64,000 nucleotides of DNA, taken from Streptococcaceae bacterium ESL0687. GTDB lineage: Bacteria; Bacillota; Bacilli; Lactobacillales; Streptococcaceae. The notes under the pieces are model-generated. The model had not been told where the DNA came from, searched no databases, and saw only the letters and a program-made list of their open reading frames with translations. Positions within the stretch are counted from its first letter, which is position 1, and every line of letters begins with the position of its first letter. Positions 20,940 to 51,424 of the stretch are shown one piece after another. The stretch covers positions 1,364,001 through 1,428,000 of the forward strand of contig CP113940.1 in the NCBI GenBank assembly GCA_029392475.1. The letters are read 5' to 3'. A program made the translations under genes and the position numbers.

Positions 20940-21355
20940 AAAAACTCCTTAATATTTTTTTATTATAAAACTTTTATTTATTATAATGGTTTTATAGGTA
21001 ATATACAAACCAAATCCACTAACTGATTCAAAGCAAAAATAGCATAGGTCATAACCTATGCTATTTTTCACAAGGTTAGTTCAAGGAAAATGCCCTTATT
21101 CCAAGACTAACTGTGAAACCTATCCTTTTCTTTCCCAAAAAATCTCCATACAGGCTCACACTACTCAAATTATCAGTTATAATCTTTTCTTTTTCAGCTT
21201 TATAAATCCAGTATATCTTAATACCTGTAGAAAACTCCTTGGCCTAGCTTTACTTAAAAAGTATAGGCAATTTGGATAAAGCGTATCCACCAGTATGATA
21301 CCATAAAATTTTTTTAAAATAAACGCTTACCTTCCCTCGCTACCTATATTTACAC
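20940..21355 (-). other. 416-base region with possible small transcript and strong terminator
   Basis: No convincing protein gene. On the minus strand there is an extended -10 TGGTATCAT (21303-21295) with a weak -35, and about 250 bases downstream a strong terminator at 21035-21068. Between them lies a long imperfect hairpin, 21066-21118, with TTTCACA/TGTGAAA and GTTAGT/ACTAAC pairings. A 37-codon frame from a GTG at 21290 to 21177 also exists but has no recognisable homology. The region may be the 3' UTR of the rhomboid transcript, a small RNA, or decayed coding sequence. Confidence 0.3.
21035..21068 (-). terminator. Strong terminator downstream of the rhomboid gene region
   Basis: Perfect 15-base stem: AAAAATAGCATAGGT (21035-21049) with ACCTATGCTATTTTT (21054-21068), loop CATA. 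The T-run on either strand allows bidirectional use. Confidence 0.85.
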
Positions 21356-22725: not shown

Positions 22726-22926
22726 ATGGCACAAGGTACTGTTAAATGGTTTAACCCAGAAAAAGGATTTGGTTTCATTACTGCTGAAGATGGTAAAGAT
22801 GTATTCGTACATTTCTCTGCTATCCAAACTGATGGATTCAAAACTCTTGAAGAAGGTCAAGCAGTTGAGTTTGACGTTGAAGACGGTCAACGTGGACCTC
22901 AAGCGGTTAACGTAACAAAAGCTTAA
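22726..22926 (+). CDS. Cold-shock protein (CspA family)
   Basis: A 66-residue single cold-shock domain that binds single-stranded RNA/DNA and melts RNA structure at low temperature. RNP1 is KGFGFITA near residue 16 and RNP2 is VFVHFSAI near 28. The frame extends four codons upstream, but the ATG at 22726 gives the canonical [16 protein letters not shown] start and follows AGGAG. A long AT-rich leader with a base-paired stem precedes it, and a terminator follows 28 bases after the stop. Confidence 0.96.
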
Positions 22927-22948
22927 TTCGATATTAATTCAATTAAGT

Positions 22949-22981
22949 AAAAAAGAATCAGCATCTGCTGGTTCTTTTTTT
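22949..22981 (+). terminator. Terminator of the cold-shock gene
   Basis: AGAATCAGCA (22954-22963) pairs with TGCTGGTTCT (22966-22975), one G-U, followed by seven Ts. Confidence 0.85.
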
Positions 22982-23017
22982 GTTGGCCTTTAAAATTAAA
23001 TTTATTTGCGATTACAC

Positions 23018-23046
23018 TTGTAAACGTTTAGGACTTCTGTTATAAT
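23018..23046 (+). promoter_or_regulatory. Promoter of adcA
   Basis: TTGTAA (23018-23023), 17-base spacer, TATAAT (23041-23046) with an upstream TG. The symmetric TAAACGTTTA at the -35 edge (23021-23030) is a possible operator; it is a 12 of 14 match to cre when read from 23019 and only a weak match to the zinc AdcR box. Confidence 0.7.
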
Positions 23047-23103
23047 TTGACCTTAGCCAAGATGCTTATATATTATGAAAACCACCATAAATAGGAGAGT
23101 TAA

Positions 23104-29203: not shown

Positions 29204-29839
29204 TCAATTTTTCGGAACCATATATAAGTGATAGCAGATGCGTCCATTAATTGCATCTCCATCTTTTAGAGACTTCAATGAATCTTTAAATGTAATTTCA
29301 AGATTTTTTATATAATTTGTTATAATTCCAGTATTCTCTTCAGTAGTCATATGTTCACATTTTGCAATAATTGTATCTACACCTGTTTTCATTGATTCTT
29401 TATTAATTTCAAATCTTGTTACATGATAATCAGTCTGCTTATTTTTTTCCTGATGATCCCTAGTAACTTGATTATTATAAACACTGGCTTTTAATACCCA
29501 GTCTCTTTTACTAGAATCATTAAAAATTTCAACTTTATTATCCTGAGCAAGCTCCTCAGCATCAATTTGATGAGTCGTACTATCTGAGTGATCTATAAAA
29601 CCATAGACGTCTGGCACATGATTCATTGCTATTTTTTCTTTTGGATGATTCGCTGCTAACTCTGTATCATATGGCAAAGTAGATCCACTAACATCTACTT
29701 CACTTTCATCACCATCAAGTATCTTAATAGTAACCTGAGTTTGTCCCGCACCTATAAATTCATCCGCTCTAACTTGGTTAACTCCATGGAAAACCAAGAC
29801 TGTTAATACTCCTAAAATTAACAGTCGTATAATTTTCAT
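29204..29839 (-). CDS. Divergent small WxL-domain surface protein
   Basis: A 211-residue secreted protein: signal peptide of about 25 residues (KIIRLLILGVLTVLVFHGVNQVRA) and one WxL-like domain. It aligns by eye with the next two genes at AMNHVPDVYGF, EIFNDSSKRDWVLKASV and the C-terminal GRICYHLYMVPKN, but lacks their MNAKKLLGLGL signal and Asp/Pro linker. It is the only one of the three small proteins with a true W-x-L (WVL) in the first motif. WxL domains bind peptidoglycan non-covalently. The ATG at 29839 follows GGAG at 11 bases; the upstream ATG at 29860 has no ribosome site. It may be degenerating or specialised. Confidence 0.75.
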   Translation of the reverse strand: MKIIRLLILGVLTVLVFHGVNQVRADEFIGAGQTQVTIKILDGDESEVDVSGSTLPYDTELAANHPKEKIAMNHVPDVYGFIDHSDSTTHQIDAEELAQDNKVEIFNDSSKRDWVLKASVYNNQVTRDHQEKNKQTDYHVTRFEINKESMKTGVDTIIAKCEHMTTEENTGIITNYIKNLEITFKDSLKSLKDGDAINGRICYHLYMVPKN

Positions 29840-30073
29840 TTTTTTGTGTACTCCATTCATATTTTTAGTTACTAATATATTAGATATCTAACCAAGATAG
29901 TAGTATACATTAAATAATTTGTGAATTAAAGTTAACATCTGCTTGTTTTCTGAAAAAATTATGTAAAAAACACAAAAAACCATATATTTTCTGAAAATAC
30001 ATGGAAAAAATTAAGAAAATAAAAAATTAAATCATCTACGAATAGAACTTCAATCCATAAAAATAGTTTTATG

Positions 30074-30101
30074 TAAAAAAGAAGGGACTTCCCCTTCTTT
30101 T
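30074..30101 (-). terminator. Terminator of the middle small WxL gene
   Basis: AAAAGAAGG and CCTTCTTTT arms (30077-30101) followed on the minus strand by TTTTTT, directly after the stop codon. Confidence 0.75.
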
Positions 30102-30109
30102 AATAGTGA

Positions 30110-30847
30110 TTATTCTGTAACCATGTAAAGTTGGTAGCTGATAGTACCTGAGACAACGTCATTTACCTGAAGAACGTGGTCAGCATCTGTAAAGGTAATT
30201 GATACGGCAGACACTGGAATAGTCATTGTACTTGTATTGTTAGTAGCACTAAGAGTTGTTCCTGATTTACCGTATACGTCCTGGGCAACAATTGCTTGGT
30301 AACCAGTTGTTGCAGCATTGACTGGTGTGGTACCTGTACCATTGTCTCCACTACTTGTAATATTAAAGGCAGTTACTGGGAAATATTTGGCCCCACTTTT
30401 GTTAATAGTAAGTTGACCGGTATTACCAGTAACCACATTACCATTCTCTGGATCTGTTACACTAGCTTTAACTTTCCAGCGACGTCCAACCTTACTATTG
30501 AATACTACTATGTCTTCAGATCCATCACCTGATGTACCACTACCGATGGTCGAAGCTGTAGCTGTATATGTTGTATCAGATACTTCAGTATTAAAAATAT
30601 AAGCGGTCGGAACATGATTAAGAGTTAAACGAGTTTGACCAGGTAGAACTGGTGAAGTTGGGTCTGTTGGTGTAACTGGAGCAATTGGGTCTGGATCAGA
30701 CTCATCGATAACGTTAACTGTGACCGTTGTATCATCAGTTTGAGTTTGAACTTCGTGGTCAACATCATCTGCAAAGGCAGCAGTAGAGCCAGCTCCTAAC
30801 AGAACAGCTCCTGCAAGACCTAATCCTAGTAATTTTTTTGCATTCAT
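30110..30847 (-). CDS. Small WxL-domain surface protein, copy 1
   Basis: A 245-residue secreted protein. Signal peptide 1-26 (MNAKKLLGLGLAGAVLLGAG, cleavage after AFA), an acidic/proline linker (DESDPDPIAPVTPTDPTSP) and a WxL-type domain from about residue 70 (LTLNHVPTAYIF) to the end. The first motif reads RRWKVKASV and the terminal motif YQLYMVTE, so W-x-V and Y-x-L replace the usual W-x-L pair. It is a close paralogue of the next gene. ATG follows AGGAGG at eight bases. A long structured leader precedes it. Such proteins normally attach to the cell wall without sortase. Confidence 0.82.
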   Translation of the reverse strand: MNAKKLLGLGLAGAVLLGAGSTAAFADDVDHEVQTQTDDTTVTVNVIDESDPDPIAPVTPTDPTSPVLPGQTRLTLNHVPTAYIFNTEVSDTTYTATASTIGSGTSGDGSEDIVVFNSKVGRRWKVKASVTDPENGNVVTGNTGQLTINKSGAKYFPVTAFNITSSGDNGTGTTPVNAATTGYQAIVAQDVYGKSGTTLSATNNTSTMTIPVSAVSITFTDADHVLQVNDVVSGTISYQLYMVTE

Positions 30848-31110
30848 TGTGAATACCTCCTAAAATCAATGTACTAAAATTTACAAGTAAATCCCAGTAG
30901 CTAAAGTTAATATACCTCCCACAAAAAAGCATAGCTACCCTTTTGTAGTTTCCGATAAGACACCTAGTCCAATCATCAGGTCTATGAATATCTCTTACTT
31001 GTCTAAAAAATATTCATAGACCAAACGAGAAAACCCTTGGTATCAAAGATGGTATACCTGTGCGACCAGATAATTTTGAACAAGCAAAATAAAGGTTGTT
31101 CAAAATTATC
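30848..31110 (-). ncRNA. Structured 5' leader of small WxL gene, copy 1 (uncharacterised)
   Basis: About 260 bases upstream of the gene hold: a 15-base perfect hairpin (31069-31083/31096-31110), a 13-base stem (30979-30991/31010-31022), a conserved unpaired block GACTAGGTGT (minus strand, 30969-30960), a small hairpin ATTTAC-TT-GTAAAT (30892-30879) and the AGGAGG site. The same order of elements recurs before the next WxL gene (32127-32356). I do not recognise a known riboswitch class. The remaining 31111-31375 is AT-rich with nothing else I can support. Confidence 0.5.
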
Positions 31111-31375
31111 CTTAAATTTAACTAGCCTAAAAACATTTATAAAAAAATTTTATCATAAATAAGCAAGTTTTTTCTTGTTTATTTACAAGCTATTATATTG
31201 ATATAATATCATTAGAATTAATAAAAAGCTAATAAAAGGTGTGTATTTATGAAATTATTTTAACAAGTTATTGTACTATTTTTAATATATTTATAAAAGT
31301 TTATATTATCTTAGTCTGTAACTTTAAATAACAAATCTATCAAAGACTTTAAAACAAATTTCTTCTTTGACACAC

Positions 31376-31404
31376 AAAAAAAGAAGGAGAATATTCTCCT
31401 TCTT
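31376..31404 (-). terminator. Terminator of small WxL gene, copy 2
   Basis: Perfect GAAGGAGAAT/ATTCTCCTTC palindrome (31383-31402) followed on the minus strand by seven Ts. Confidence 0.85.
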
Positions 31405-31418
31405 CTAATTGGGACATA

Positions 31419-32126
31419 TTAAACTGTTGTAACCATGTAAAGTTGGTAATCAATTGTACCAGTTACTGTGTCTCCAGCCTTGATAACGTGAGTGTTATCT
31501 GTGAAGCCGATTGATACAGCTGATACTGGGATTGACATTGAACTTGTATTGTTCTCTGCATCAAGAGTAGCGCCTGACGCTGCGTTCACATCTTGGGCAA
31601 CGACACCTTGGTAACCAGTTGCTGAAACTTCTTGAGCTGAACCGTTACCATTTGCACCAGTTGATGTAATCTTGAATGAAGTTACTGGGAAGTTAGTTGT
31701 AGTACCACTCTTAGTAATAGAGAGTTGTTCGTTAGCCACAGTAGCTTTAACATTCCATTTACGTCCGACCTTGCTGTTGAATACTACGATGTCTTCAGAT
31801 CCATCACCTGCAGTACCACTACCAATTGTTCCTGAGTTTACTGTATATTGACCATCCGATACAGTAGTTTGGAAATCGTAAGCTGTAGGAACGTGATTAA
31901 GAGTTAGACGTGTTTGCCCTGGTAAAACTGGTGAAGTTGGGTCTGTCGGAGTAACTGGGTTGATTGGATCTGGATCAGACTCATCGTTAACTTGAACAGT
32001 AACGGGTGTTGTACCTGTTTGAGTTTGAACTTCGTGGTCAACATCAGCAGCGAAAGCTGTAGCAACTCCAGATCCTAGTAGAACAGCACTAGCAAGACCT
32101 AGTCCTAGTAATTTCTTTGCATTCAT
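31419..32126 (-). CDS. Small WxL-domain surface protein, copy 2
   Basis: A 235-residue paralogue of the previous gene with near-identical signal (MNAKKLLGLGLASAVLLGSG), linker (DESDPDPINPVTPTDPTSP) and domain layout. The first motif is RKWNVKATV and the last YQLYMVTTV, again W-x-V and Y-x-L. Differences cluster in the middle (GNGSAQEVSATGYQGVVAQDV). Signal cleavage is expected after AFA near residue 26. ATG follows AGGAGG. It is monocistronic between a structured leader and a terminator. Predicted to be a wall-associated protein; partners are unknown and no DUF916-type WxL-interacting gene lies in the window. Confidence 0.82.
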   Translation of the reverse strand: MNAKKLLGLGLASAVLLGSGVATAFAADVDHEVQTQTGTTPVTVQVNDESDPDPINPVTPTDPTSPVLPGQTRLTLNHVPTAYDFQTTVSDGQYTVNSGTIGSGTAGDGSEDIVVFNSKVGRKWNVKATVANEQLSITKSGTTTNFPVTSFKITSTGANGNGSAQEVSATGYQGVVAQDVNAASGATLDAENNTSSMSIPVSAVSIGFTDNTHVIKAGDTVTGTIDYQLYMVTTV

Positions 32127-32356
32127 TTATGAATACCTCCTAAATATAATGTACTAAGATTTACAAGTAAATCCATGTAGCGATAGTTGTATACTCCTAT
32201 AATCTAGCAAGAATGCTGTCCTATAGTCTCCGAAAATTACACCTAGTCTAATTATCCGGTCTATCAGTACCTTTGGTAAAGATACTCATAGACCAGATAA
32301 GTAAACTTCTAGTAACTGGAATGAATATACTTGAACGACTAAGTGGTAAACCACTT
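32127..32356 (-). ncRNA. Structured 5' leader of small WxL gene, copy 2 (uncharacterised)
   Basis: Counterpart of the leader at 30848-31110. It has a short 5' hairpin (AAGTGG/CCACTT, 32341-32356), a long stem with arms 32258-32271 and 32281-32294, GACTAGGTGT (32248-32239, minus), the ATTTAC-TT-GTAAAT hairpin (32172-32159) and AGGAGG. In the long stem one A-U pair of copy 1 is G-C here, a compensatory change, though there is also one mismatch. The 5' hairpin differs in sequence but not in position. Confidence 0.5.
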
Positions 32357-32530
32357 TTATTTGTTTTTGATTAGTTAAATAAATTATTAATAAATAATTA
32401 AGTTAACTATCTTTTATTAATATTTATTTATTAATATATTACTATGTGTTTTTTCAAAAATCAACTCATTTGCTCCAATTTTTTGTAATTTTTTTGAAAA
32501 AATTCACTATTTTTTCGTCTTAATCACAAG

Positions 32531-34810
32531 TTAAGGGGCATCAACTACACTCCACAAGATGGTCATCCCATTATGATCACCAATAGTCAGGTAATCATCA
32601 CTTTTAAGCTGGATACCCTCATTTTCTGCCCAGGACTTAGTAGAGGTAATACTTCCATTGGCATCTGTACTTGTGCTTGCACCGCTGGTAGAATTGGTAA
32701 ACAAGGGCTCACCATCTATATCAACCGGTGTAGCACTAGTATCTTCCTTCCAAACTAGACTAAAAGGTGCGCTACCACTGGTTTCAGCCGTAACCTCCCA
32801 ACCAGTCTGGTTGATTCTAGTATCCTTAGTAGTAAGAGCCATGGTATTACCACTGTCTCTTACAAGAACACCTTTGGTATCAGTCATCTGTCTACCCGTC
32901 CATGAAAGACCTGAAGGAACACCAGTGAGGGTTATCATGCCGTCAACTGTTACATTCATAGTTAAGGTTTGTTTCAAAGTTTCTGTGCCATCTAACGACT
33001 GCTTGAAGGCTTTAAGGTAAAAGACTTTATTAACAGACTTAACTGGAAGATACGAAGATGGAATCGTAAAACTCAAACTATTGTAAGTAGACAATCCATC
33101 TGTAATAACATCAGCCAAATCTGACCCTATTTGATTACCAGCACTATCCGTCAATCTAAACATCAAATTATTGAACCTTCCGGGATCATTCCAGTAGAAG
33201 GTTCCCGTATAGTCTGCTGCATTATCGGTAGCCGTTGACAGAGAAATCGCTTTTGTAGAAATATCACTTCCGTCACTCGCCCAAGAAAGAGTAACCGGCG
33301 TTTGCCTAGTAAAGGACATAAAGGTAGAATTTTTGAGACTTGTTACCTGCGCTGTTGTAAAATTGGCATCTCCAGTTCTAGTAATAGTTCCGACATTTGA
33401 AGAATTAAGATTCTGAGACCAGGTACCAGGTTGTGTCTGAGGTAGAAAATAAGTGTAAGCATTACTTGGAGGTGCGTTAATGTAAGAATCATATCCCAGG
33501 GTATTGGCCCCAAAAGTATTAAAATTTATATTAGCAGCCCCAGTAATTGGATTATTTTTACCAGAAGTCGCTCCCCCTTCAATCAAAAGTCTCGCTGCAT
33601 CATTGATATTAAAATTAGCCGTTCCGCTTATAATCATTGAATCATTATTAGCTGATGAAAAGACAGCACTGGAATTCGTCGGCATATTCATCGTCAAATT
33701 GACAAAATAACTAGTATTTATCGAATGAAGATCAAGATTAGCCCCTTCACCTAAAGTAATGATAGGTGACATACCCGTTTGAGTGATAATCTGTCCTGTA
33801 CTTTCAAGTGGTGTTGCCTGTTTGAAAGATAGAGTCCCGTTTTTCCCGATAGTTATGGTTGGCGTTCCACCCCCACTGTAGATAAAATCATGGTGGGACA
33901 CCGGAACAACAAGGCTTGCATTATCCCCGATTGTTACAGTTGTTGCAGTTGCTGCTGACCAGAAGAAACCATCTGCCTCAGTATTATTGTCATAGACTGT
34001 CGTACTACTGTTATCAGTGAAAACAAAGTTACAAGCCTCAGCAAATTCTTGAGAGTAGGAACCTCCCATCATATTAAAGACATTAGTTCCTGAAAAAACT
34101 ATCTTGTTAGATGAACCTGTTAGGTAAAAAGGCTGTCCACCATAGTCAGAGTTATAGGTAACATTCTCCACGATTAATGTAAGATTTGTCCTACCGTCAG
34201 TCGTGGGAGCAATACCGTAATAATTACCAGCATTACTAGGACTATGGGATCCTATCGCACTAGCAAAACCAAAGGTCACATTCTTATAGTGAATGGTGAT
34301 GTTACTGGCTCTAAAATTAATACCTTGTGTCTGACTCCCTCCCCCATAAGTTATAGTATAGAGACCTTGACCATCAATCGTAATATTCTTAGTGACATTG
34401 AAGCTACCTGTTCCTAAGGCTATGTTCGCCGTTAGGATAATGGTATCGATTGCTGAATTGGCTAATGCAGAAGTCAAATCACTTGTCGATCCCACATAAG
34501 CTGTAGATGAAGCATCCATGGTTGATACTGCTGCAAATGCTTTTAGACTAGGTGTCTCAGTTGATAAGATTTCAGCAGATGAGGATGAACTCGCAGAGTT
34601 TGAAATAGCCTCACTCAGAATGGATAAACTTCCACTTGATTCCGATGAAACTGACGACTGTACAGAGCTTGCTGAACTCGAAGTGGTTGAACTTGAGCTA
34701 CTTGAAATATCTGAACTTATATCTTCTGAATAAGCTGAATTACTCCTTAAAATTCCAGCGGACAGGCAAGACAGAAGCAAAGCTCCTTTTAAAAAAACTG
34801 TATATCTCAA
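32531..34810 (-). CDS. Large WxL-type surface protein with pectate-lyase-like adhesive region (A1)
   Basis: A 759-residue secreted protein. Signal peptide about 1-30, a Ser/Thr-rich stalk (about 30-75), a repetitive beta-helix-like region (about 95-450, TSDLTSALANSAIDTIILTA, NITIDGQGLYTITYGG, NITIHYKNVTFGF) like the adhesive pectate-lyase-like domains of Gram-positive surface proteins, two immunoglobulin-like segments, and a C-terminal WxL-type domain with TGWEVTAETSG and a terminal ILWSVVDAP. No LPXTG is present. The start is taken as TTG at 34810, six bases after AGGGAGG; the ATG at 34837 lies upstream of that site. No catalytic residues of a lyase are evident. Probable adhesin or scaffold. 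Confidence 0.78.
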   Translation of the reverse strand: MRYTVFLKGALLLSCLSAGILRSNSAYSEDISSDISSSSSSTTSSSASSVQSSVSSESSGSLSILSEAISNSASSSSSAEILSTETPSLKAFAAVSTMDASSTAYVGSTSDLTSALANSAIDTIILTANIALGTGSFNVTKNITIDGQGLYTITYGGGSQTQGINFRASNITIHYKNVTFGFASAIGSHSPSNAGNYYGIAPTTDGRTNLTLIVENVTYNSDYGGQPFYLTGSSNKIVFSGTNVFNMMGGSYSQEFAEACNFVFTDNSSTTVYDNNTEADGFFWSAATATTVTIGDNASLVVPVSHHDFIYSGGGTPTITIGKNGTLSFKQATPLESTGQIITQTGMSPIITLGEGANLDLHSINTSYFVNLTMNMPTNSSAVFSSANNDSMIISGTANFNINDAARLLIEGGATSGKNNPITGAANINFNTFGANTLGYDSYINAPPSNAYTYFLPQTQPGTWSQNLNSSNVGTITRTGDANFTTAQVTSLKNSTFMSFTRQTPVTLSWASDGSDISTKAISLSTATDNAADYTGTFYWNDPGRFNNLMFRLTDSAGNQIGSDLADVITDGLSTYNSLSFTIPSSYLPVKSVNKVFYLKAFKQSLDGTETLKQTLTMNVTVDGMITLTGVPSGLSWTGRQMTDTKGVLVRDSGNTMALTTKDTRINQTGWEVTAETSGSAPFSLVWKEDTSATPVDIDGEPLFTNSTSGASTSTDANGSITSTKSWAENEGIQLKSDDYLTIGDHNGMTILWSVVDAP

Positions 34811-35126
34811 TTCGCCCCTCCCTCCAATTTCTATCATGTAGACTAGTAAGGGCTTACATTACATAGTACTCCTAAGAAAACTACCCCAAACCGCCCAACA
34901 ATTAATATTTAATAAAACATTAACTTTATTCTTTATTAATTAAAACACTACCGAAGGATTGTAAAACTTTTATTAGTTAATTAAACCACTGTATCATTAG
35001 TTTTTAATTAGATATAAAGATTCTTTTATTATGCGGTAATAATACCACACCTTTTTCTAAAAAGCTACACTTTCGATTTATTTTTTTGTTTTTTTTTCAC
35101 AAAAATAGTTAACTAGTTAACTTACT
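34811..35126 (-). other. Gap between A1 and A2 large WxL genes
   Basis: 316 AT-rich bases. It holds the palindrome AGTTAACTAGTTAACT (35107-35122) just after the A2 stop, with T-rich sequence beyond on the minus strand, so it may be the A2 terminator. Its core TTAACTAGTTAA (35109-35120) also fits the AdcR consensus TTAACYRGTTAA exactly. A possible extended -10 TGGTATTAT lies near 35040. No open frame of note. Confidence 0.4.
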
Positions 35127-37451
35127 TTAAGGAGCAGCAACCAGATTCCAAGAAATAGTAAGACCATTGTGGCTGCCGATAGTCAAATAGTCATCACTTT
35201 TTAAAAGAACTCCAGAATTTTCAGCCCAGGACTTACTGTAGGTAACACTACCGTTGGCATCAGTACTTGTTCCTATACCAACTGTATCCTTAGTAAAAAC
35301 TGAGACATCTTCTAAATTAACAGGCACGTCTCCTGCAGCATCCTTCCAAACCAAACTAAAGGGCGCAGTTCCAGCAACATGTGCAGTAAGCATCCAAGGG
35401 GTTGGATTTATCCTTGTATCCTTAACTTCAAAAGACATAGTATTACCACCATCTCTAGCAAGAATACCCTTGGTTTGAGCGATAGTCCTATTAGTCCAGG
35501 ATAGATTTGACGGCATATTTTTAAGGGATACCCTTCCGTCAACTGTTATATTGAGAGGTAGAGTTTTCATGAGTGTTTGACTACCATCTAAATTTTTCTT
35601 AAAGGCCTTGATATAAAAGCTTTTATTAACACTTTTAACTGGGAGGTAAGAAGAAGGAATAGTAAATTGGATGCCAGTATAATCATTATGCCCAGGTGTT
35701 GAGGCTATATTGGCCAAATCTGATCCAATTTGACTTACTCCATCACTGTCATATAGTTTAAAAATAAGATTGTTAAAACGTCCCGGGTCATTCCAGTAAA
35801 CAGTATCCGTATAATCAGCCGCATTATCTGTAGATGTGGTAAGAGGCACTGCTTTTGCTGATGTATCACTTCCATCACTGGTCCACGAAAGGCTGACCGG
35901 GGTTTGTCTTGTAAAAGACATGAAGGTTGTATTTTGCAAACTAATCAGCTGGGAATTTGTAAAGTTCGGATCTCCTGTCCTTGAAAAAGTTACATTACTA
36001 CCATTGTCAGATGAATTACCAGACCAAGTTCCAGGCTGGGTTTGAGTAAGGAAATTAGCATAAGAGTTACTTGGGGGAACGTTAATGTAGGAATCATATC
36101 CTAAAGTATTAGTCCCAAATGAATTAAAATTAATATTTGATTTACCTGTAATAGGATTACCGCTTGTTCCCTCAATCAAAAGTCTTGCTGCATCACTGAT
36201 ATTAAAGTTCCCTGTCCCTGAAATTTTCATGGAATCTCCAGATGCTGCAGCAAAAACAGCACTAGAATTCTTAGGCATATTTACTGTTATATCAGTAAAG
36301 GTACTGGTATAACGAGAGTGAAGATCTAAGTTAGCCCCTTCTCCTAGAGTAATTGATGGCGAAAGGGTTTGGTAAATAATTTTCCCACTTCCCCTTGTAT
36401 CGCTTGTATTTTGGTTAAAGGATATGGTTCCATTATTACCAATCTTTATTACGGGAACACCGCCTCCGGCATAGATAAAGTCATGCCTTGATGTTGTGAC
36501 GATAAAATTTGCATTGTCTCCCACAGTGATACTTGGAGCTGCATTATCTGACCAGATAAAACCACTGGCCCCTTGGTTCTTATCTGTTACAGTCGTTGTA
36601 CTGTTGTCTTCAAAAACAAAATTTGAAGCCTCCGCAAATTCCTGAGAATTACCGTCACTTTCTCCTAACATGTTGAAAACATTGTTACCCTTGAAGATAA
36701 TTTTGTCGTTCTTTCCTTTCAGATAAAAAGGTTGAGCACCCCGGTCTGAATTATAGGTAACATTTTCAATAATCAAGGTCCTACTTGAATTATTCCCTGA
36801 TAGGTTCCTACCTGGGCTAAAGCCGTAGTAGTTACCAGCATTGGTTGATAAATTTTTGCCAAGGTCACTAGCCCTTCCAAAAAATATATTTTTAAAATGG
36901 ATGGTTATATTATCTTGGTTAAAGTAAATCCCCCGCGTGTCACTCATAGTGCCGCCATAGGTAATTGTGTGATTATTACCTTCAATGGTAATATTCCGGT
37001 TAACTGCAAACTGACCATTACCAAGTGCTAAATCAGCAGTCAAGTAAATGGTATCCACCGAAGAGTCATTTAAGGCATTGGTTAAATCGTTTGTGTTTGC
37101 TACAGAAGCAGTAGTTTGTGTTCCCACATCCATGGTGCTAACTGACAATCTAGGGCTTATATCACTGGGCTCAGAAGAAGCGGAATCATCTGAGCCATCA
37201 GACTTTACAGACTCAGATGAGGAAATTTTACTAGAACTTCCCTTTACCTCACTTGATTGTGACGAACTAGGGGCCACCTGATTTATTTTAGAACTTTCAT
37301 TACTAGTAGAAGACGGTGAAATATCATCAGCATGAACAGTTCCTAAATTACTTAAAAATGTTATCAATAAAGACAAATAGGACAGTAAGATAGTGTGTTT
37401 TTTGTAAAGACCCCACCTGGTCTTCTTTGATTCTCTTTCCATAAAATCCAT
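35127..37451 (-). CDS. Large WxL-type surface protein with pectate-lyase-like adhesive region (A2)
   Basis: Close paralogue of A1, about 774 residues. Signal region with basic stretch (KKTRWGLYKKHTILLSYLSL, cleavage after VHA), Ser-rich stalk, beta-helix-like region (NDLTNALNDSSVDTIYLTAD, NITIEGNNHTITYGG, NITIHFKNIFFGR), FMSFTRQTPVSLSWTSDG shared with A1, and a C-terminal WxL domain with TPWMLTAHVAG and terminal ISWNLVAAP. No LPXTG. The frame extends to 37523 without a ribosome site; ATG at 37451 or 37442 is more likely, so the start is uncertain. A strong promoter with cre boxes lies at 37538-37591. Confidence 0.78.
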   Translation of the reverse strand: MDFMERESKKTRWGLYKKHTILLSYLSLLITFLSNLGTVHADDISPSSTSNESSKINQVAPSSSQSSEVKGSSSKISSSESVKSDGSDDSASSEPSDISPRLSVSTMDVGTQTTASVANTNDLTNALNDSSVDTIYLTADLALGNGQFAVNRNITIEGNNHTITYGGTMSDTRGIYFNQDNITIHFKNIFFGRASDLGKNLSTNAGNYYGFSPGRNLSGNNSSRTLIIENVTYNSDRGAQPFYLKGKNDKIIFKGNNVFNMLGESDGNSQEFAEASNFVFEDNSTTTVTDKNQGASGFIWSDNAAPSITVGDNANFIVTTSRHDFIYAGGGVPVIKIGNNGTISFNQNTSDTRGSGKIIYQTLSPSITLGEGANLDLHSRYTSTFTDITVNMPKNSSAVFAAASGDSMKISGTGNFNISDAARLLIEGTSGNPITGKSNINFNSFGTNTLGYDSYINVPPSNSYANFLTQTQPGTWSGNSSDNGSNVTFSRTGDPNFTNSQLISLQNTTFMSFTRQTPVSLSWTSDGSDTSAKAVPLTTSTDNAADYTDTVYWNDPGRFNNLIFKLYDSDGVSQIGSDLANIASTPGHNDYTGIQFTIPSSYLPVKSVNKSFYIKAFKKNLDGSQTLMKTLPLNITVDGRVSLKNMPSNLSWTNRTIAQTKGILARDGGNTMSFEVKDTRINPTPWMLTAHVAGTAPFSLVWKDAAGDVPVNLEDVSVFTKDTVGIGTSTDANGSVTYSKSWAENSGVLLKSDDYLTIGSHNGLTISWNLVAAP

Positions 37452-37537
37452 ACTTTCAAATATAATAATTAAATTAAGATCTAATTTTTCAAAAATATGT
37501 AAGCAAATAGAATTTAAATTCATGAGTTTTCGAAAAC

Positions 37538-37591
37538 GTTTTATTCATTTACATGAAAACGATTATATACCGAATTTACAGGGTAAGTCAA
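37538..37591 (-). promoter_or_regulatory. Promoter of A2 with overlapping cre boxes
   Basis: Minus strand TTGACT (37591-37586), 18-base spacer, TATAAT (37567-37562). TGAAAACGATTATA (plus, 37554-37567) covers the -10 and matches cre at 13 of 14; a second looser symmetric site with GAAAACGTTTT lies just downstream near 37541. This predicts CcpA repression of the adhesin. Confidence 0.6.
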
Positions 37592-37701
37592 TAAAAAATA
37601 ATTGTGAACTTCTTTTATAGTATTCAATTTTTTTTGTGCAATTTCTAAAAAAGGGCCTAAATATTTAACAAGTATTTTTTTATAAAGTTATTTTTTCACA
37701 A

Positions 37702-37728
37702 ATAAAAAAGAGGACCTAAGTCCTCGGT
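37702..37728 (-). terminator. Terminator after the frameshifted WxL gene
   Basis: GAGGAC (37710-37715) with GTCCTC (37720-37725), loop of four, followed on the minus strand by TTTTTTATT. Confidence 0.85.
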
Positions 37729-37744
37729 AAATTTATAAGTGCAT

Positions 37745-39981
37745 TTACGGGGTTACTGCTAAAATCCAAACAATGGATAGATTGTTATAATCCCCAATAT
37801 TCATATAGTTACTACTGTCTAGCAAGATGCCAACATCTTTGGTCCAGGTTTTAGTATAAAGGTTATTACCATCACGGCTTACATCCCCATTTGTAAATAC
37901 AATATGAGTGTCTAAAGGTTCTAGGGAACTTCCAGAATTTGCCTTCCAAACAAGAGAAAAATCTTCCGTTCCCTCAACAAAAGTTCTTAAAACCCAATTT
38001 TGCGGGATTGTGCGAGTATCTTTGACACTTATGGTCATATCATTACCTAGATCTCTTTCAAGAACTCCTTTAGTTTCAGTAATTGTCCGGTTGGTCCAGG
38101 AAAGATTACTTGGGGTAGATATAAGGGTTACAGTCGGATTAGTAACCGTTATAGCTATCGTCAAAGGCGGACTTGAAGTTTCTTCTATTAGGGCACCACC
38201 TGCGGTAGCCTTATAGACCCTAATGGTGAAGGTATAGGTATGTCCAGCTGCTAGATTGGCTTCAAGAATATAATAGGTAAAGGAATTATAACCCGTACCG
38301 CCATTAGTTTTAGCACCTGTAAAATCTGACCCTACTTGGTTATTAGATGAGTCAAAAATCCTAAAGACCAAATTCCTATCAGTCCCAGGATCTGTCCAAT
38401 AAAAGTTGTCCTCAAAATTACCTTGAGATATGGTCTCAGAATTGCTGGAAACAACACTTCCATCAGCCCAGGATAAGGTGGTTGGCGTTTTTCTTTCAAG
38501 GATCAACTTAGTGGCTGCAACTAAGGCTGATTTTTCACCTAAAGAAAAATCACTAGTGGCCCTAGTATAGGCTCCACTTGCAACAGTCCAACCATAAGTA
38601 TTAGTTTGAGTTAAAAGTGGATTAGATGATGCATTAGTAAAAACATCATAACCTGTCTCCCATTTGAATAGGTTGAAAAATTAAATTTAGCATTATTACC
38701 AACCACACTATTTGTTGTTCCTTGAAGAGTAAGTCTAGAGGCATTATCAATATTAAAGGTAGCCATCGTACTGGCATTCAGAGCATCTCCCACAGCAGAA
38801 TTAATGACTACTTCAGAATCTCTTGCCTGATTTATTGTTAAATTAGCAAACTGATTGACTGACTGAGTTTGTATATCAAACTTAGATCCAATTCCTAATC
38901 CAACAGTCAGATTTTTATCGGTCTGTGAAATAAACTTTCCAGTACTTTTAGCGGTAGTCTTGATATAATTTAAACTTCCCCCATCTCCTATACTTATTGT
39001 TGGATTAGCACCTGAGGTATAAAGGAAATCATGATTGGAGGTTACATTAAAACTTGCCCCTGCTCCAATCTGCATATTAAGAGACCCATTAGCAGCATAG
39101 ATAAATCCTGTTTGATCTGTATTACTATCAGTAACAGTTGTCGTACTTCCTGCCTCAAATATAAAGTTAGCACATTCTGCGAATTCCTCAGAATCAGTTC
39201 CACCCTTCATAATAAAAGTGTTGGTTCCTTTAAATGTTATTGTTTCATTTGCTCCATTAAGGAAAAGAGGTTCTGCCCCATAATCTGAATAGTAACCAAC
39301 ATTTTCAAGGACTAATTTTTTTCCGCTCGTTAAAATTCCTGGAGGAGCTATCCCGTAATAATTACTAGCATTAGTCTTATTATTTGATCCAAGAGCTGAC
39401 TCAAAACCAAAATTTACATTCTTGTAAGTAATGGTTATATTGCTTGCACCATAGTATATTCCTCTAGTAGTGGAATTATTAGTCCCAAGTGGATTACCAT
39501 AAGTAATAGTATACCTTCCACCCATCCCATCATTTTTGTCGCCGTTTATAGTAATATCTCTTGTAACAGCAAAGCCTAAAATCCCTAAGTCAAGATCACT
39601 TGTTAGGTTAATGGTATCAACTGTTGGCAAGGTAAGAGCCAGGGTAAGATCTACTATGTTTCCAACCGAATAGCTAATTCTTGCATCTGCCATGGTTGAT
39701 GCTTCTACATTACTTACTCCTACGACTTCTCCTAGGATTTCTTGATCATTTGAACTATCACCTACCATAATAGTCGAAGAATCTGCACCTGAAACGCTAA
39801 TACTTGATGATGGCAAATCTAATTCCTCACTACTTGAATTTTGACTGAGAACGTCATAGCTTGATGAATTCTTCCATGCGGAATTAGTTGACTCCTGCCC
39901 ATAAGCCATAATAGTCACAGGCAGGTAAAAAATTAAAAATAAAAATGTAAAAAATAATTGCCTTAAAAACTTATGTTTCAA
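37745..39981 (-). pseudogene. Large WxL-type surface protein B1, split by a one-base frameshift
   Basis: Two frames together make one protein like B2. The 5' part (39981-38611) has signal peptide, Ser-rich stalk, and the beta-helix-like region to NFSTYSNG; the same strand then continues in another frame as GYDVFTNASSNPLLTQTN through LILERKTPTTLSWADG to a WxL domain (QNWVLRTFVEG, terminal IVWILAVTP). B2 reads NFGSFNNGTLGYDVSINGV here, which places the shift at about 38651-38662, a one-base deletion. The break is not in a long homopolymer. As read, the first product ends early and would lack the WxL anchor. It may be a sequencing error, phase variation or true decay. Start appears to be TTG at 39981. 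Confidence 0.8.
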
Positions 39982-40033
39982 ATTAATAATCCTATCAATA
40001 TACTTTCTAATATATGCTAATACATATTAAATA

Positions 40034-40076
40034 ATAAAAAGCAGGAAGCAGTTACTAAAAACTGTCCTGCTTCTTT
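40034..40076 (-). terminator. Terminator of the B2 gene
   Basis: AAGCAGGA (40039-40046) with TCCTGCTT (40065-40072), inner CAGTT/AACTG pairing, followed on the minus strand by TTTTTATTATTT. Confidence 0.8.
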
Positions 40077-40084
40077 TATTATGA

Positions 40085-42361
40085 TTATGGCGTAATGGCT
40101 AAGGTCCAAGTTATGGTAATATTACTGTGACTTCCAATAGTTAAGTAATCAGAACTATTAACCAAGACACCCGTATTTTCATCCCAAGTCTTACTGTAAA
40201 TGTCATCACCGTCCCGGCTGACATCATAGTTGGTAAATACTGTCTGATAATGTAAATCGACAGGGTCTGTAGATGAATCTGCCTTCCAAACCAAAGAATA
40301 ATCATCTGTTCCTGATACAAGAGCCTTTACAACCCAGTGGTGAGCATTTTCATTTTTATCCAAAACCTCAAGGGTCATGGGATTATTAGTGTCTCTTGTT
40401 AAAATACCCTTAGTTTCTGAAATAGTTCGATTGCTCCAAGTAAGAGCTGTTGGGGCAGTGGTTAGGGTAACAACAAAGTCAGATGTTGTTAAATTAAGTA
40501 ATAAACGCTCACTTGTTGTCGTTTCCTCATACTGGTAACCATTTGCCGTTTCCTTGTAGGCTCTAATCTCAAAATTATAATTAGCACCAAATTCTTCAAA
40601 ATACATAGGTGCAATCGTATAAGTTTTAGATTCAAAAGCTGAATCTCCATCTGTCGTAACCGAAAAGTCTGATCCAACCTGGGTCTCAGTACCTGCAATA
40701 AAAATTTTAAAGATTAAGTTTCTGTTAGAACCATTATCCTGCCAGTACAAGTGGTCGGCAAAATAAGTTCCAACGGATGCAGTCCCTGGCTCTTGCAAAT
40801 GCCCTGCTTCATTTTCAAAGGATATGACAGCCTTGGTTTTTCTTTCAAAAACAATTTTTTGGGCATTATTAAGTTGGTTCCTAACAGTCGTGGTAAAGTC
40901 CGAATTGGGCCTTGAAAATGAACTTCCCGCAACACTCCAGTAATCATTATTAGTCTGAGTTACTATAGGTTGGGATACACCATTTATAGATACATCGTAT
41001 CCTAATGTTCCATTATTAAAACTCCCAAAATTAAATGTTGCATTAGTCCCTGCCACACTTGTGGTTGTTCCCTGGAGAGTTAGCTTAGAAGCTTCATTAA
41101 TATTGAAGGTAGCCATAGTAGATGCATTTAAGGCATCATCTGATTTTGAAACAATTGCAGCCTCTGAATTTACTGCCTGACTTAAAGTAAAGTTTGTAAA
41201 TACTGATTTTATAGGTGTTTGTATATAGAGAGTCGATCCAACTCCTGCGTCAATATTTAAATTTTTACCAGTTTGATATATAAGTTTTCCTGAACTAACA
41301 GTATTAGCCTGTGTTATTGATAAGGTCCCTCCAGCTCCAATGGAGACATTATGAAGTGTATTTAAATCTGAATAAATAAAATCATGCGTAGTTGAAATAT
41401 TGACGGTCGCACCTGCTCCCACTTGAAAATTTAAAGGATTATTCTGAGGCCAAATAAAACCTAAATTGTTTGTATTACCATCAGTAATGGTGGTTGTGCT
41501 ACCAGCATCAAAAATAAAATTCGATCCTTCAGCAAATTCCTGTGAATATGATCCACCACCCATGACAAAGGTATTAGTTCCTTTAAAGGTTATAGTCTCT
41601 GATGCCCCTGGAAGGTAGAAGGGTTGGGCTCCATATCCTGAATAATAGCCAACATTTTCAACAATCAAAGTCTTATTTGACATACCATTAGGAGGAGCAA
41701 TCCCGTAGTTGTTACTAGCATTTGTTGTGCTATGACTGGTTACAGGGGTACCCGGGAAACCGAAATTAACATTCCTATAGTGAATGGTTATCCCATTTGC
41801 TCCGTAACAAATCCCAATACCAGAATTACTATCACCTGCATAGGTGATAGTATAGCGTCCACCAGAACCATTATCCCCATCAATAATAACACTATGATTT
41901 ACCGGATTGGACGTAGTTCCAAGATCTATATTGGCACCAAGATAGATGGTATCATATGATGTATTAGCTAGGGCAGATTGTAATTGAGTTTGAGTGGTTA
42001 CTGTAATACTGGCCCTTGTTGACATCATGGTCGATGATTGAGCATTTGGCTCTCCTGCCTCCTCACTTACTTCCACTTCATTAACCTCATCTGATGCAGA
42101 ATCACTTACCTCATTAGAATTCAGACTTTCAGAATTTATAGAACTTGAATTAGAAATAAAAGATGAACTAGATGGAAGTAGACTACTACCTATTGAAGAT
42201 AGGTCTGCGGAACTATCCGAAGAATCTGTAACTGAACCTGAGTTACTTGAAGACACACCTGAACTTCCCAGGGCAAAACCATTAATGGTCAAGGACAAAC
42301 TTAAAATTATAACAGCTAGTAGGAAAAATTTTCCCTTAAAAAAATTACTTTTCAAACCCAT
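40085..42361 (-). CDS. Large WxL-type surface protein with pectate-lyase-like adhesive region (B2)
   Basis: A 758-residue secreted protein, intact sister of B1. Signal peptide about 1-30 (KGKFFLLAVIILSLSLTING), Ser-rich stalk to about 85 followed by an acidic patch (DEVNEVEVSEEAGEP), beta-helix-like region (TQTQLQSALANTSYDTIYLGA, SVIIDGDNGSGGRYTITYAG, GITIHYRNVNFGF), a segment with FERKTKAVISFENEAG, and a WxL-type C-terminus with HHWVVKALVSG and terminal ITWTLAITP. No LPXTG. The ATG follows a G-rich site (GGGGGTAA). It is the gene nearest pgsA, at the right edge of the WxL block. Confidence 0.8.
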   Translation of the reverse strand: MGLKSNFFKGKFFLLAVIILSLSLTINGFALGSSGVSSSNSGSVTDSSDSSADLSSIGSSLLPSSSSFISNSSSINSESLNSNEVSDSASDEVNEVEVSEEAGEPNAQSSTMMSTRASITVTTQTQLQSALANTSYDTIYLGANIDLGTTSNPVNHSVIIDGDNGSGGRYTITYAGDSNSGIGICYGANGITIHYRNVNFGFPGTPVTSHSTTNASNNYGIAPPNGMSNKTLIVENVGYYSGYGAQPFYLPGASETITFKGTNTFVMGGGSYSQEFAEGSNFIFDAGSTTTITDGNTNNLGFIWPQNNPLNFQVGAGATVNISTTHDFIYSDLNTLHNVSIGAGGTLSITQANTVSSGKLIYQTGKNLNIDAGVGSTLYIQTPIKSVFTNFTLSQAVNSEAAIVSKSDDALNASTMATFNINEASKLTLQGTTTSVAGTNATFNFGSFNNGTLGYDVSINGVSQPIVTQTNNDYWSVAGSSFSRPNSDFTTTVRNQLNNAQKIVFERKTKAVISFENEAGHLQEPGTASVGTYFADHLYWQDNGSNRNLIFKIFIAGTETQVGSDFSVTTDGDSAFESKTYTIAPMYFEEFGANYNFEIRAYKETANGYQYEETTTSERLLLNLTTSDFVVTLTTAPTALTWSNRTISETKGILTRDTNNPMTLEVLDKNENAHHWVVKALVSGTDDYSLVWKADSSTDPVDLHYQTVFTNYDVSRDGDDIYSKTWDENTGVLVNSSDYLTIGSHSNITITWTLAITP

Positions 42362-50279: not shown

Positions 50280-50351
50280 ATATAACTCCCCTAGTCTAAT
50301 AGTCTAAATTGCTTTGTAAATTATACCACAATTTAGATAATTATGATAGTT

Positions 50352-50388
50352 TAAAAAAAAAAAACACCTCAAAAGAGATGTTTTTTTA
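50352..50388 (-). terminator. Terminator of tsf
   Basis: ACACCTC (50364-50370) with GAGATGT (50375-50381), one G-U on the RNA strand, followed by a run of T on the minus strand. Confidence 0.85.
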
Positions 50389-50389
50389 A

Positions 50390-51424
50390 TTATTTGCTTG
50401 CTGCTTTTGTTTGAGCTGCAACTTCTGCTGCAAAGTCGTTTACAGCTTTCTCAATTCCTTCACCAACTTCGAAACGTACGAATGCAACAACTTTTGCATT
50501 TACTGAATCTAAGTAAGCTTCAACTGTTTTGCTGTCGTCCATGATGTAAACTTGAGCAAGAAGTGTGTAAGCTTGGTCAACTTTAGTGTTGTCAAGCATG
50601 AAGCGGTCCATTTTACCTGGAATGATTTTATCCCAGATTTTTTCTGGTTTACCTTCAGCTTTAAGTTCAGCTTCGATGTTTTCTTTTGCTTCAGCAAGTA
50701 CTTCGTCAGTGATTTGAGCACGTGAACCGAATTTAAGAGCTGGAAGTGCTGGTTTGTTAACCATAGCACGTGATTCGTTATCTTGCTCGATAGCGTGGTT
50801 CATTTGTGCAAGTTCATCAGTGATGAATTGTGCATCAAGTTCTTTGTATGAAAGTACTTGTGGTTTCATAGCAGCGATGTGCATTGAAACTTGTTTAGCT
50901 AAAGCGTCATCTCCACCGTCGATAACAGCGATAACCCCGATACGTCCACCATTGTGTTGGTAAGCACCAAAGTGTTGCTCGTCAGTTTTTTCTAAAAGAG
51001 CGAAACGACGGAATGAGATTTTTTCTCCGATTGTAGCTGTAGCGTTAACATAAGCTTCTTCAAGAGTTTCTCCGTTAGCCATTTTAAGAGCCATAGCTGC
51101 TTCGTTGTCAGCAGGACGTCCTTCAGCGATAACTTTAGCTGTTTCGTTTACAAGAGTAACGAATTGGTCGTTTTTAGCTACGAAGTCAGTTTCAGAGTTG
51201 ATTTCAACTACTGCTGCAACGTTACCGTCAACGTAAACACCAGTAAGTCCTTCAGCTGCTACACGGTCAGCTTTTTTAGCTGCCTTAGCCATACCTTTTT
51301 CACGAAGAAGCTCAACAGCTTTTTCCATGTTTCCATCAGTTTCAACTAATGCTTTTTTAGCGTCCATAACACCAGCACCAGAGATTTCGCGTAGTTCTTT
51401 AACTTGAGCTGCAGTAACTGCCAT
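50390..51424 (-). CDS. tsf: Elongation factor Ts
   Basis: Guanine nucleotide exchange factor for EF-Tu. The 344-residue protein starts [27 protein letters not shown] (UBA-like domain), followed by the [10 protein letters not shown] core motif near 78 and the EF-Tu-contact domains. It is the second gene of the conserved rpsB-tsf operon, with a partial terminator in the gap. Codon use is strongly biased, as in highly expressed genes. Confidence 0.97.

Follow-up and report, generated by a model that had tools for sequence, protein, structure and literature searches.

A structured leader RNA shared by small WxL-like surface-protein genes in two genomes of one genus of Streptococcaceae

The stretch of DNA analysed here, referred to as the window, comprises 64,000 nucleotides of Streptococcaceae bacterium ESL0687 (contig CP113940.1, positions 1,364,001 to 1,428,000 of the forward strand). 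Its minus strand carries two tandem paralogous genes, WxL1 and WxL2, whose proteins share 72% identity and each of which is preceded by a leader region. The genes, their leaders and the terminator-like sites behind them are the following (positions are those of the window).

30110..30847, minus strand: WxL1, a small secreted WxL-like protein of 245 aa
31419..32126, minus strand: WxL2, a small secreted WxL-like protein of 235 aa
30848..31140, minus strand: leader 1 (of WxL1), whose 5' end was placed by eye, guided by a possible extended -10 element, TGATAAAAT, at 31155-31147
32127..32375, minus strand: leader 2 (of WxL2), 5' end estimated by eye
31379..31406, minus strand: terminator-like site 3' of WxL2, between both genes
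30082..30095, minus strand: short terminator-like site 3' of WxL1

The proteins are called WxL-like because of their homology and gene context, no curated match being available. WxL2 gave a sub-threshold match to the Pfam WxL domain (13.8 bits against a cut-off of 25, E 0.059), while WxL1 had no Pfam match of its own and no WxL domain was found by Pfam in the counterpart protein of a second genome of the genus (G003). A paralogue elsewhere in the genome of the window (G000:1130103-1130771), 42% identical to WxL2, reached 21.6 bits for the same domain and adjoins a gene for a WxL-interacting protein (WxLIP, 122.8 and 120.3 bits), and the leader-bearing genes are therefore homologous to a protein encoded beside such a gene. 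At the Pfam cut-off, the WxL domain was found in none of WxL1, WxL2, the G003 protein and this paralogue. A third small secreted protein, WxL3 (29204-29860, minus strand), is 30% identical to WxL2 and is not preceded by such a leader (folding z -0.99).

The site behind WxL2 comes from a scan of the region that found two terminator-like sites, compared with 1.2 in shuffled sequences. Since a terminator-like site lies behind each WxL gene, WxL1 and WxL2 are probably separate transcription units that give one-gene mRNAs. The expression level of these genes was approached through codon usage, in which the genes that we take to be ezrA, adcA, tsf, rpsB and adhE were named from their translations. 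With tsf, rpsB and adhE as the reference, the codon scores were 0.672 for WxL2, 0.634 for ezrA, 0.619 for WxL1 and 0.508 for WxL3. Once dropped from the reference, adhE scored only 0.42, and it is thus a poor codon reference. With tsf and rpsB alone (24 genes), the G003 gene (0.573) and WxL2 (0.548) came next below both reference genes, adhE and WxL1 scored 0.420 and 0.418, and the other 18 genes ranged from 0.208 to 0.382; the reference in these comparisons consists of two or three genes only. Such a codon bias suggests high expression of the WxL genes and agrees with their preliminary description as genes for abundant surface proteins.

Both leaders are predicted to fold far more strongly than chance would allow. 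The folding energy of each was lower than that of all 200 dinucleotide shuffles (z -7.28 for leader 1 and -5.58 for leader 2), and the leader in G003 reached z -5.60. Among 24 upstream regions of the window (230 bases each), only leaders 1 and 2 fell below z -5. When 182 tiles from both strands of the window were folded, three were below z -5 in the first run; a repeat of the scan with different shuffles placed leaders 1 and 2, on the minus strand, lowest of all (-7.79 and -6.53), followed by a value of -4.39. Upstream regions of the large surface-protein genes of the locus gave z values from 0.2 to -2.2, with no such leader, and those of other WxL-like genes in the window's genome and in G003 gave -0.6 to -3.8, with no match to the covariance model of the leader (R1). 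The next-best upstream regions in the window belong to the ezrA-like gene (50280-50509, minus strand, z -4.00) and the adcA-like gene (22874-23103, plus strand, z -3.33), and the lowest tile besides the leaders was 21001-21230, with z -4.4 on the minus strand and -4.3 on the plus strand.

The distribution of the leader is narrow. By sequence search, only two copies are present in the window's genome, and among 98 genomes (this one included) a single other genome, G003, of the same genus, yielded a match that spans the greater part of the leader (79% across 186 bases). The G003 copy lies directly before the counterpart gene (L026:6573-7298), whose protein is 60% identical, and in all three known cases the leader thus precedes a WxL-like gene of this kind. 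The preliminary description had proposed a search for further homologues as its own test; one homologue was indeed obtained, but it belongs to a sister species, where it precedes the counterpart gene and not another kind of gene. Two other genomes of the genus yielded no match to the gene at E 1e-8 and none to the leader at E 10. The covariance model R1 matched 2 of 335 genomes of the family, namely the window's own and G003, and 1 of 395 genomes drawn from the order, again the window's own. It matched 0 of 105 genomes of another family, one including two genomes with related proteins, in a set without a positive control. The draws have some genomes in common, and stricter filters applied above 40 genomes lose weak matches. 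Run on the window and on seven regions around WxL-like genes, R1 returned the three leaders, three reverse-strand echoes of the long stem P2 and one match at E 2.3.

Searches of broader collections were also conducted. The P2 pattern had no match in genome contigs or viral contigs, and leader 2 had none in plasmids or phages by distant BLAST, although records close to the window's genome may be absent from these sets. A mobile hairpin or repeat was rejected on these results, together with the presence of only two genome copies. Matches of leader 2 in another genome, G025, cover merely 22 bases of its 5' hairpin region and were dropped as homologues; there, three copies of this 22-base stretch lie 97 bases apart (G025:C1:129597-129812; L011, L013 and L014) and probably form a local repeat array. 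A candidate relic of a second leader upstream in G003 was rejected as well, 61 of 500 shuffles scoring as high. With regard to known RNA families, a tRNA was the only Rfam 15 match in the window to attain its gathering score, and the 11 permissive matches within 30700-32600 were all far below their gathering scores, in agreement with the earlier view that the leader fits no known class. In the open-licence PMC literature, no leader RNA of WxL genes was described among the matches listed, as far as titles and the starts of abstracts indicate.

When the three conserved cores were folded separately by minimum energy, a single plan emerged, in which a three-way junction with two arms is followed by a hairpin (P4) and then by the stretch that contains AGGAGG. 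The junction is closed by the helix P0 (GUAUA/UAUAC), and its arms are the long stem P1-P2 and the small hairpin P3. The elements are located as follows.

30870-31061, minus strand: conserved core of leader 1, matching covariance model R1, of which leader 1 is a member
32150-32334, minus strand: conserved core of leader 2, a match to covariance model R1
31068..31111, minus strand: 5' hairpin of leader 1, 16 bp, sequence not conserved
32341..32356, minus strand: 5' hairpin of leader 2, 6 bp
31053..31057 (5' strand) and 30909-30915 (3' strand), minus strand: closing helix P0 of leader 1, from separate folds and alignment
32325..32330 (5' strand) and 32189-32194 (3' strand), minus strand: closing helix P0 of leader 2, from separate folds and alignment
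30966..31035, minus strand: long stem P2 (GGTCTAT/ATAGACC) of leader 1, arms 31006-31035 and 30966-30995, with both-side changes
32245..32307, minus strand: long stem P2 of leader 2, arms 32278-32307 and 32245-32274, with both-side changes
30951..30956, minus strand: TCGGA block of leader 1, the 3' strand of P1, which the minimum-energy fold of leader 1 leaves unused
32229..32234, minus strand: TCGGA block of leader 2, the 3' strand of P1, from alignment
30919..30948, minus strand: second junction arm P3 of leader 1, with one U-A to C-G change
32197..32226, minus strand: second junction arm P3 of leader 2, from fold and alignment
30872..30899, minus strand: hairpin P4 (GATTTAC..GTAAAT) of leader 1, with an A-U to G-C change in G003
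32152..32179, minus strand: hairpin P4 of leader 2, from fold and alignment
30851..30876, minus strand: ribosome-binding stretch TAGTACATT...TTTAGGAGGTATTC of leader 1, nearly identical in the three leaders
32131..32156, minus strand: ribosome-binding stretch of leader 2, nearly identical in the three leaders

The order of elements that the preliminary description had assigned to both leaders is borne out, as the 5' hairpin, the long stem with GGTCTAT/ATAGACC, GACTAGGTGT, TCGGA(A/G)ACTA, the ATTTAC-TT-GTAAAT hairpin and AGGAGG are all present in both on the minus strand. Two of its details need revision. The 5' hairpin had been regarded as conserved in position, but the hairpin of leader 1 is strong, that of leader 2 is short, and folding of the G003 leader gave no clear hairpin there, so that the claim fails in the third member. 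In addition, GACTAGGTGT had been read as a conserved unpaired element; of its 10 bases, the minimum-energy folds pair 9 in leader 1 and 6 in leader 2, and the G003 leader carries GATTAAGCAC at this place. Therefore, GACTAGGTGT is not a conserved unpaired box. A promoter scan reported 14 sites on both strands of 2.6 kb, compared with 9.9 (sd 2.9) in shuffles, and the 5' ends of the transcripts given above are estimates by eye. A promoter sequence shared upstream of the leaders was considered and found to be weak and AT-rich, with shuffles scoring as high in 14 of 500 cases (leader 2 and leader 1), 16 of 500 (leader 2 and G003) and 39 of 500 (leader 1 and G003). A leader peptide was rejected too, since the listed short frames differ among the three leaders and no frame with a Shine-Dalgarno-like site is common to all of them.

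The predicted fold is supported by compensatory changes. Between leaders 1 and 2, two pairs of P2 are altered on both sides (G-C/A-U and U-A/C-G), which confirms the compensation reported previously in the long stem, and one more is altered in the small hairpin. In the three-leader alignment (A4), standard pairs account for 95.6% of 182 cells, a level reached by 4 of 500 shuffles, and 7 pairs show both-side changes (1 of 500 as high); with P1 left out, 97.6% of 164 cells are paired (3 of 500) and 5 pairs show both-side changes (2 of 500). Sliding the partners by 1-3 columns reduces pairing to 37.7-44.1%. The number of further pair types showed no excess over shuffles, of which 296 and 459 of 500 reached the observed values. 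The consensus (alifold) energy was -49.7, compared with a mean of -13.3 in 300 column-shuffled alignments, none of which was as low. All of these covariation figures overstate independence, because the sequences are few (three), come from one lineage and were themselves the source of the structure. Across the helices, P2 has 28 aligned pairs with 96.4% of cells paired over the three leaders, and the GGTCTAT/ATAGACC in its middle is identical in all of them. P1 is less certain than the other helices, as only 77.8% of its cells are paired in the fixed alignment; in the minimum-energy fold of leader 1, GAUACC pairs with GGUGUC at this site instead. P0 shows no both-side change in any pair, and its register is shifted in G003. 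In the modelled fold, P2, P3 and P4 are the firm parts and P0 is the weak point. Together, the single plan, the compensatory changes and the consensus energy uphold the earlier proposal of a conserved structured leader, and the RNA is almost certainly real and conserved, apparently through selection.

The degree of conservation differs between leaders. Between leader 2 and G003, 166 of 203 aligned leader positions are identical (81.8%); identity is 72.4% in the gene and 54.5% at four-fold sites (48 of 88). The corresponding values are 74.0%, 75.6% and 68.4% for leaders 1 and 2, and 68.6%, 68.6% and 59.3% for leader 1 and G003. Leader identity is thus higher than gene identity in one of the three comparisons and higher than identity at four-fold sites in every one, and leader 1 is conserved no better than its gene. 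AT-rich DNA farther upstream gave 74.4, 66.2 and 63.0% in the same global alignment, but with 72 to 121 gapped positions, and local alignments of the AT-rich DNA upstream of the leaders were weak. Within the core, 12 of 54 unpaired columns are invariant versus 88 of 135 in helix segments, a contrast that is weak with three sequences and gaps counted as varying. Invariant columns number 0 of 10 in the P2 loop, 0 of 4 in the P3 loop, 0 of 3 in the joint between P3 and P0, and 5 of 22 in the P1-P2 linker.

Between P4 and the start codon, the three leaders hardly differ, and AGGAGG is conserved. From 20 to 45 C, the mean unpaired probability of the Shine-Dalgarno sequence is predicted to be 0.65-0.71 in leader 2, 0.64-0.70 in G003 and 0.50-0.69 in leader 1. 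It is thus mostly open over the whole range, and an RNA thermometer was rejected on this ground. The start codons are partly paired, with unpaired values of 0.41-0.64 in the predicted ensembles. Those of WxL1, WxL2 and the G003 gene sit in a small GTATTC/GAATGC hairpin (30840-30856 and 32119-32136, minus strand), and a similar ATTC/GAAT arrangement was seen by eye at the paralogue (G000:1130771).

The behaviour of P0 depends on the stretch that is folded. Of the 14 stretches folded, 9 contain this helix in their minimum-energy structure (4 of 5 for leader 2, 2 of 5 for leader 1 and 3 of 4 for G003). In a leader 1 stretch ending at the start codon, the 5' strand of P0 pairs with the Shine-Dalgarno sequence instead, and the expected P0 pairs drop to 1.6 and 0.1 in the two stretches of this kind, compared with 6.1-7.7 in three others; leader 2 keeps P0 when folded to the same end. 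The 3' strand of P0 in leader 1 (GGGAGGTAT) resembles a Shine-Dalgarno sequence, and a decoy switch was therefore considered. However, with 40 bases of the gene included, pairing of P0 with the Shine-Dalgarno sequence amounts to 0.00-0.01 expected pairs in all three leaders. Since leader 2 is also unaffected, this alternative pairing is not shared and is possibly a trait of leader 1 in the modelled folds.

Computation shows the shared fold and its conservation, the mostly open Shine-Dalgarno sequence, the gene association and the codon bias; the one-gene mRNAs, their transcription starts and the effects on message stability and translation are inferred. The most likely reading, although no better than an even call, is that the leader serves to stabilise the mRNA and to promote translation in the manner of the aprE and slpA leaders. 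On this view, each gene for an abundant WxL-like surface protein would be transcribed alone, and its mRNA would begin with a conserved and mostly static RNA scaffold. Its stem-rich block, composed of the P0/P1-P2/P3 junction and P4, might shield the 5' region from RNases that depend on the 5' end or act on single strands, and the scaffold might keep the ribosome-binding stretch, which is unstructured and almost without variation, accessible immediately ahead of the start codon; both effects together could yield a long-lived and well-translated message. The nearly invariant, mostly open ribosome-binding stretch and the varying unpaired core point to such a protective scaffold and not to a ligand pocket. 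As in known 5' stabilisers, a strong and accessible ribosome-binding site is present, AGGAGG being conserved and mostly unpaired. All three leaders are strongly structured, with 5' ends that are estimates, and the 5' hairpin is not clear in G003. On the other hand, a simple stabiliser would need a less elaborate fold. The dependence of P0 on the stretch folded, the lack of a clear 5' hairpin in G003, the partly paired start codons and the modest conservation of leader 1 also speak against this reading. The other WxL-like genes and the large surface-protein genes lack such a leader, and a stabiliser is therefore no general need of the locus.

Several other explanations could account for parts of these data. 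The leaders might resemble each other through recent gene duplication alone, with pairing by chance, and leaders 1 and 2 have indeed diverged about as far as their genes; this is hardly credible given that the third, diverged leader retains the fold with compensations and that conservation exceeds that of four-fold sites. The long double-stranded P2, with its extensive pairing in all three leaders, could also be cut by RNase III, which would leave a defined, stable downstream mRNA, but P3 and P4 are likewise kept with compensations that a mere cutting site would not need, and we regard this processing site as improbable. A branched, aptamer-like fold upstream of a gene, with no Rfam match at cut-off, would be expected of a new-class riboswitch that senses a metabolite or an ion. 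This interpretation is very unlikely, as the unpaired core columns vary, no terminator-like site was found on the minus strand of the leaders, the Shine-Dalgarno sequence is mostly open, and the leader is known from one genus and one gene family only. A riboswitch that works through a terminator or through the Shine-Dalgarno sequence is not favoured for the same lack of a terminator-like site and because the pairing of P0 with the Shine-Dalgarno sequence is not shared.

A regulated cis element is a doubtful but real possibility, in which a protein (a control factor for the WxL product or a general RNA-binding protein) would bind P2 or the junction and tune translation or decay, perhaps by way of the P0 5' strand and the Shine-Dalgarno sequence. 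The three-way junction is retained despite sequence change, GGTCTAT/ATAGACC is identical in all three leaders beyond what pairing needs, and leader 1, when folded only as far as the start codon, nearly loses P0; the invariant motif and this leader 1 alternative represent the best argument for a bound partner or for regulation. Against it, there is no candidate partner, the leader occurs in two genomes only, and the alternative pairing all but vanishes once 40 bases of the gene are included, while leader 2 keeps P0. In its stronger form, this proposal would make the leader a genus-restricted new class of regulatory RNA, whose P2 is read by a protein or other factor and whose P0 trades with the Shine-Dalgarno block, setting the dose of surface protein after transcription, which we consider unlikely. 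The preliminary description had presented the leader as controlling its genes, and as a regulated switch this finds little support, because the varying unpaired core, the open Shine-Dalgarno sequence and the missing terminator-like site do not favour one.

For the stabilising, translation-promoting leader, several known systems offer comparisons. According to PMC3997798, a hairpin or a ribosome-binding site near the 5' end can stabilise mRNAs of Bacillus (Gram-positive). The Bacillus subtilis aprE leader likewise places a 5' structure and a ribosome-binding site before a strongly expressed gene, and when its stem-loop is removed, the stability of the mRNA falls from more than 25 minutes to roughly 5 (PMC11805744). 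Leaders such as those of aprE, ermC and cryIIIA are classical 5' stabilisers, whereas the conserved part of the present leader is internal and branched and its stabilising role is conjectural. The slpA leader of Lactobacillus acidophilus, which precedes an S-layer protein gene, is likened here by description and not by sequence; PMC6482533 describes a large predicted stem-loop in it, with a possible protective role for the mRNA, and it differs from the present leaders with their three-way junction and separate hairpins. The speB 5' UTR of Streptococcus pyogenes, likened without sequence comparison, also belongs to the mRNA of an exported protein in a streptococcus and is processed by RNases, but PMC6284565 indicates that RNase Y affects speB expression mainly at transcription and not via this processing. 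The cis-regulatory families of Rfam 15 are likewise structured RNAs upstream of genes, none of which reached its gathering score on the leaders. The leader is a narrowly distributed (two genomes of one genus) new example of a familiar kind of element. It adds a well-supported structure absent from Rfam 15 to the RNA elements associated with abundant surface proteins of Gram-positive bacteria, and its three copies in two genomes provide a compact test case for the influence that a branched leader could have on the lifetime and translation of an mRNA. Should it act only as a stabiliser, its main value would be as an expression part; if regulated, it would represent a new RNA class.

Directly upstream of the WxL genes, a tandem array of genes for large secreted proteins of about 760-800 aa occupies 32531-42361 on the minus strand, in which the Pectate_lyase_5 adhesive domain is above the cut-off in one protein and just below it in another. 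Two frames within the array (37745-38506 and 38611-39981, minus strand) look like pieces of one large, interrupted adhesin-like gene, and the G003 cluster has a single uninterrupted frame of 752 aa of that kind.
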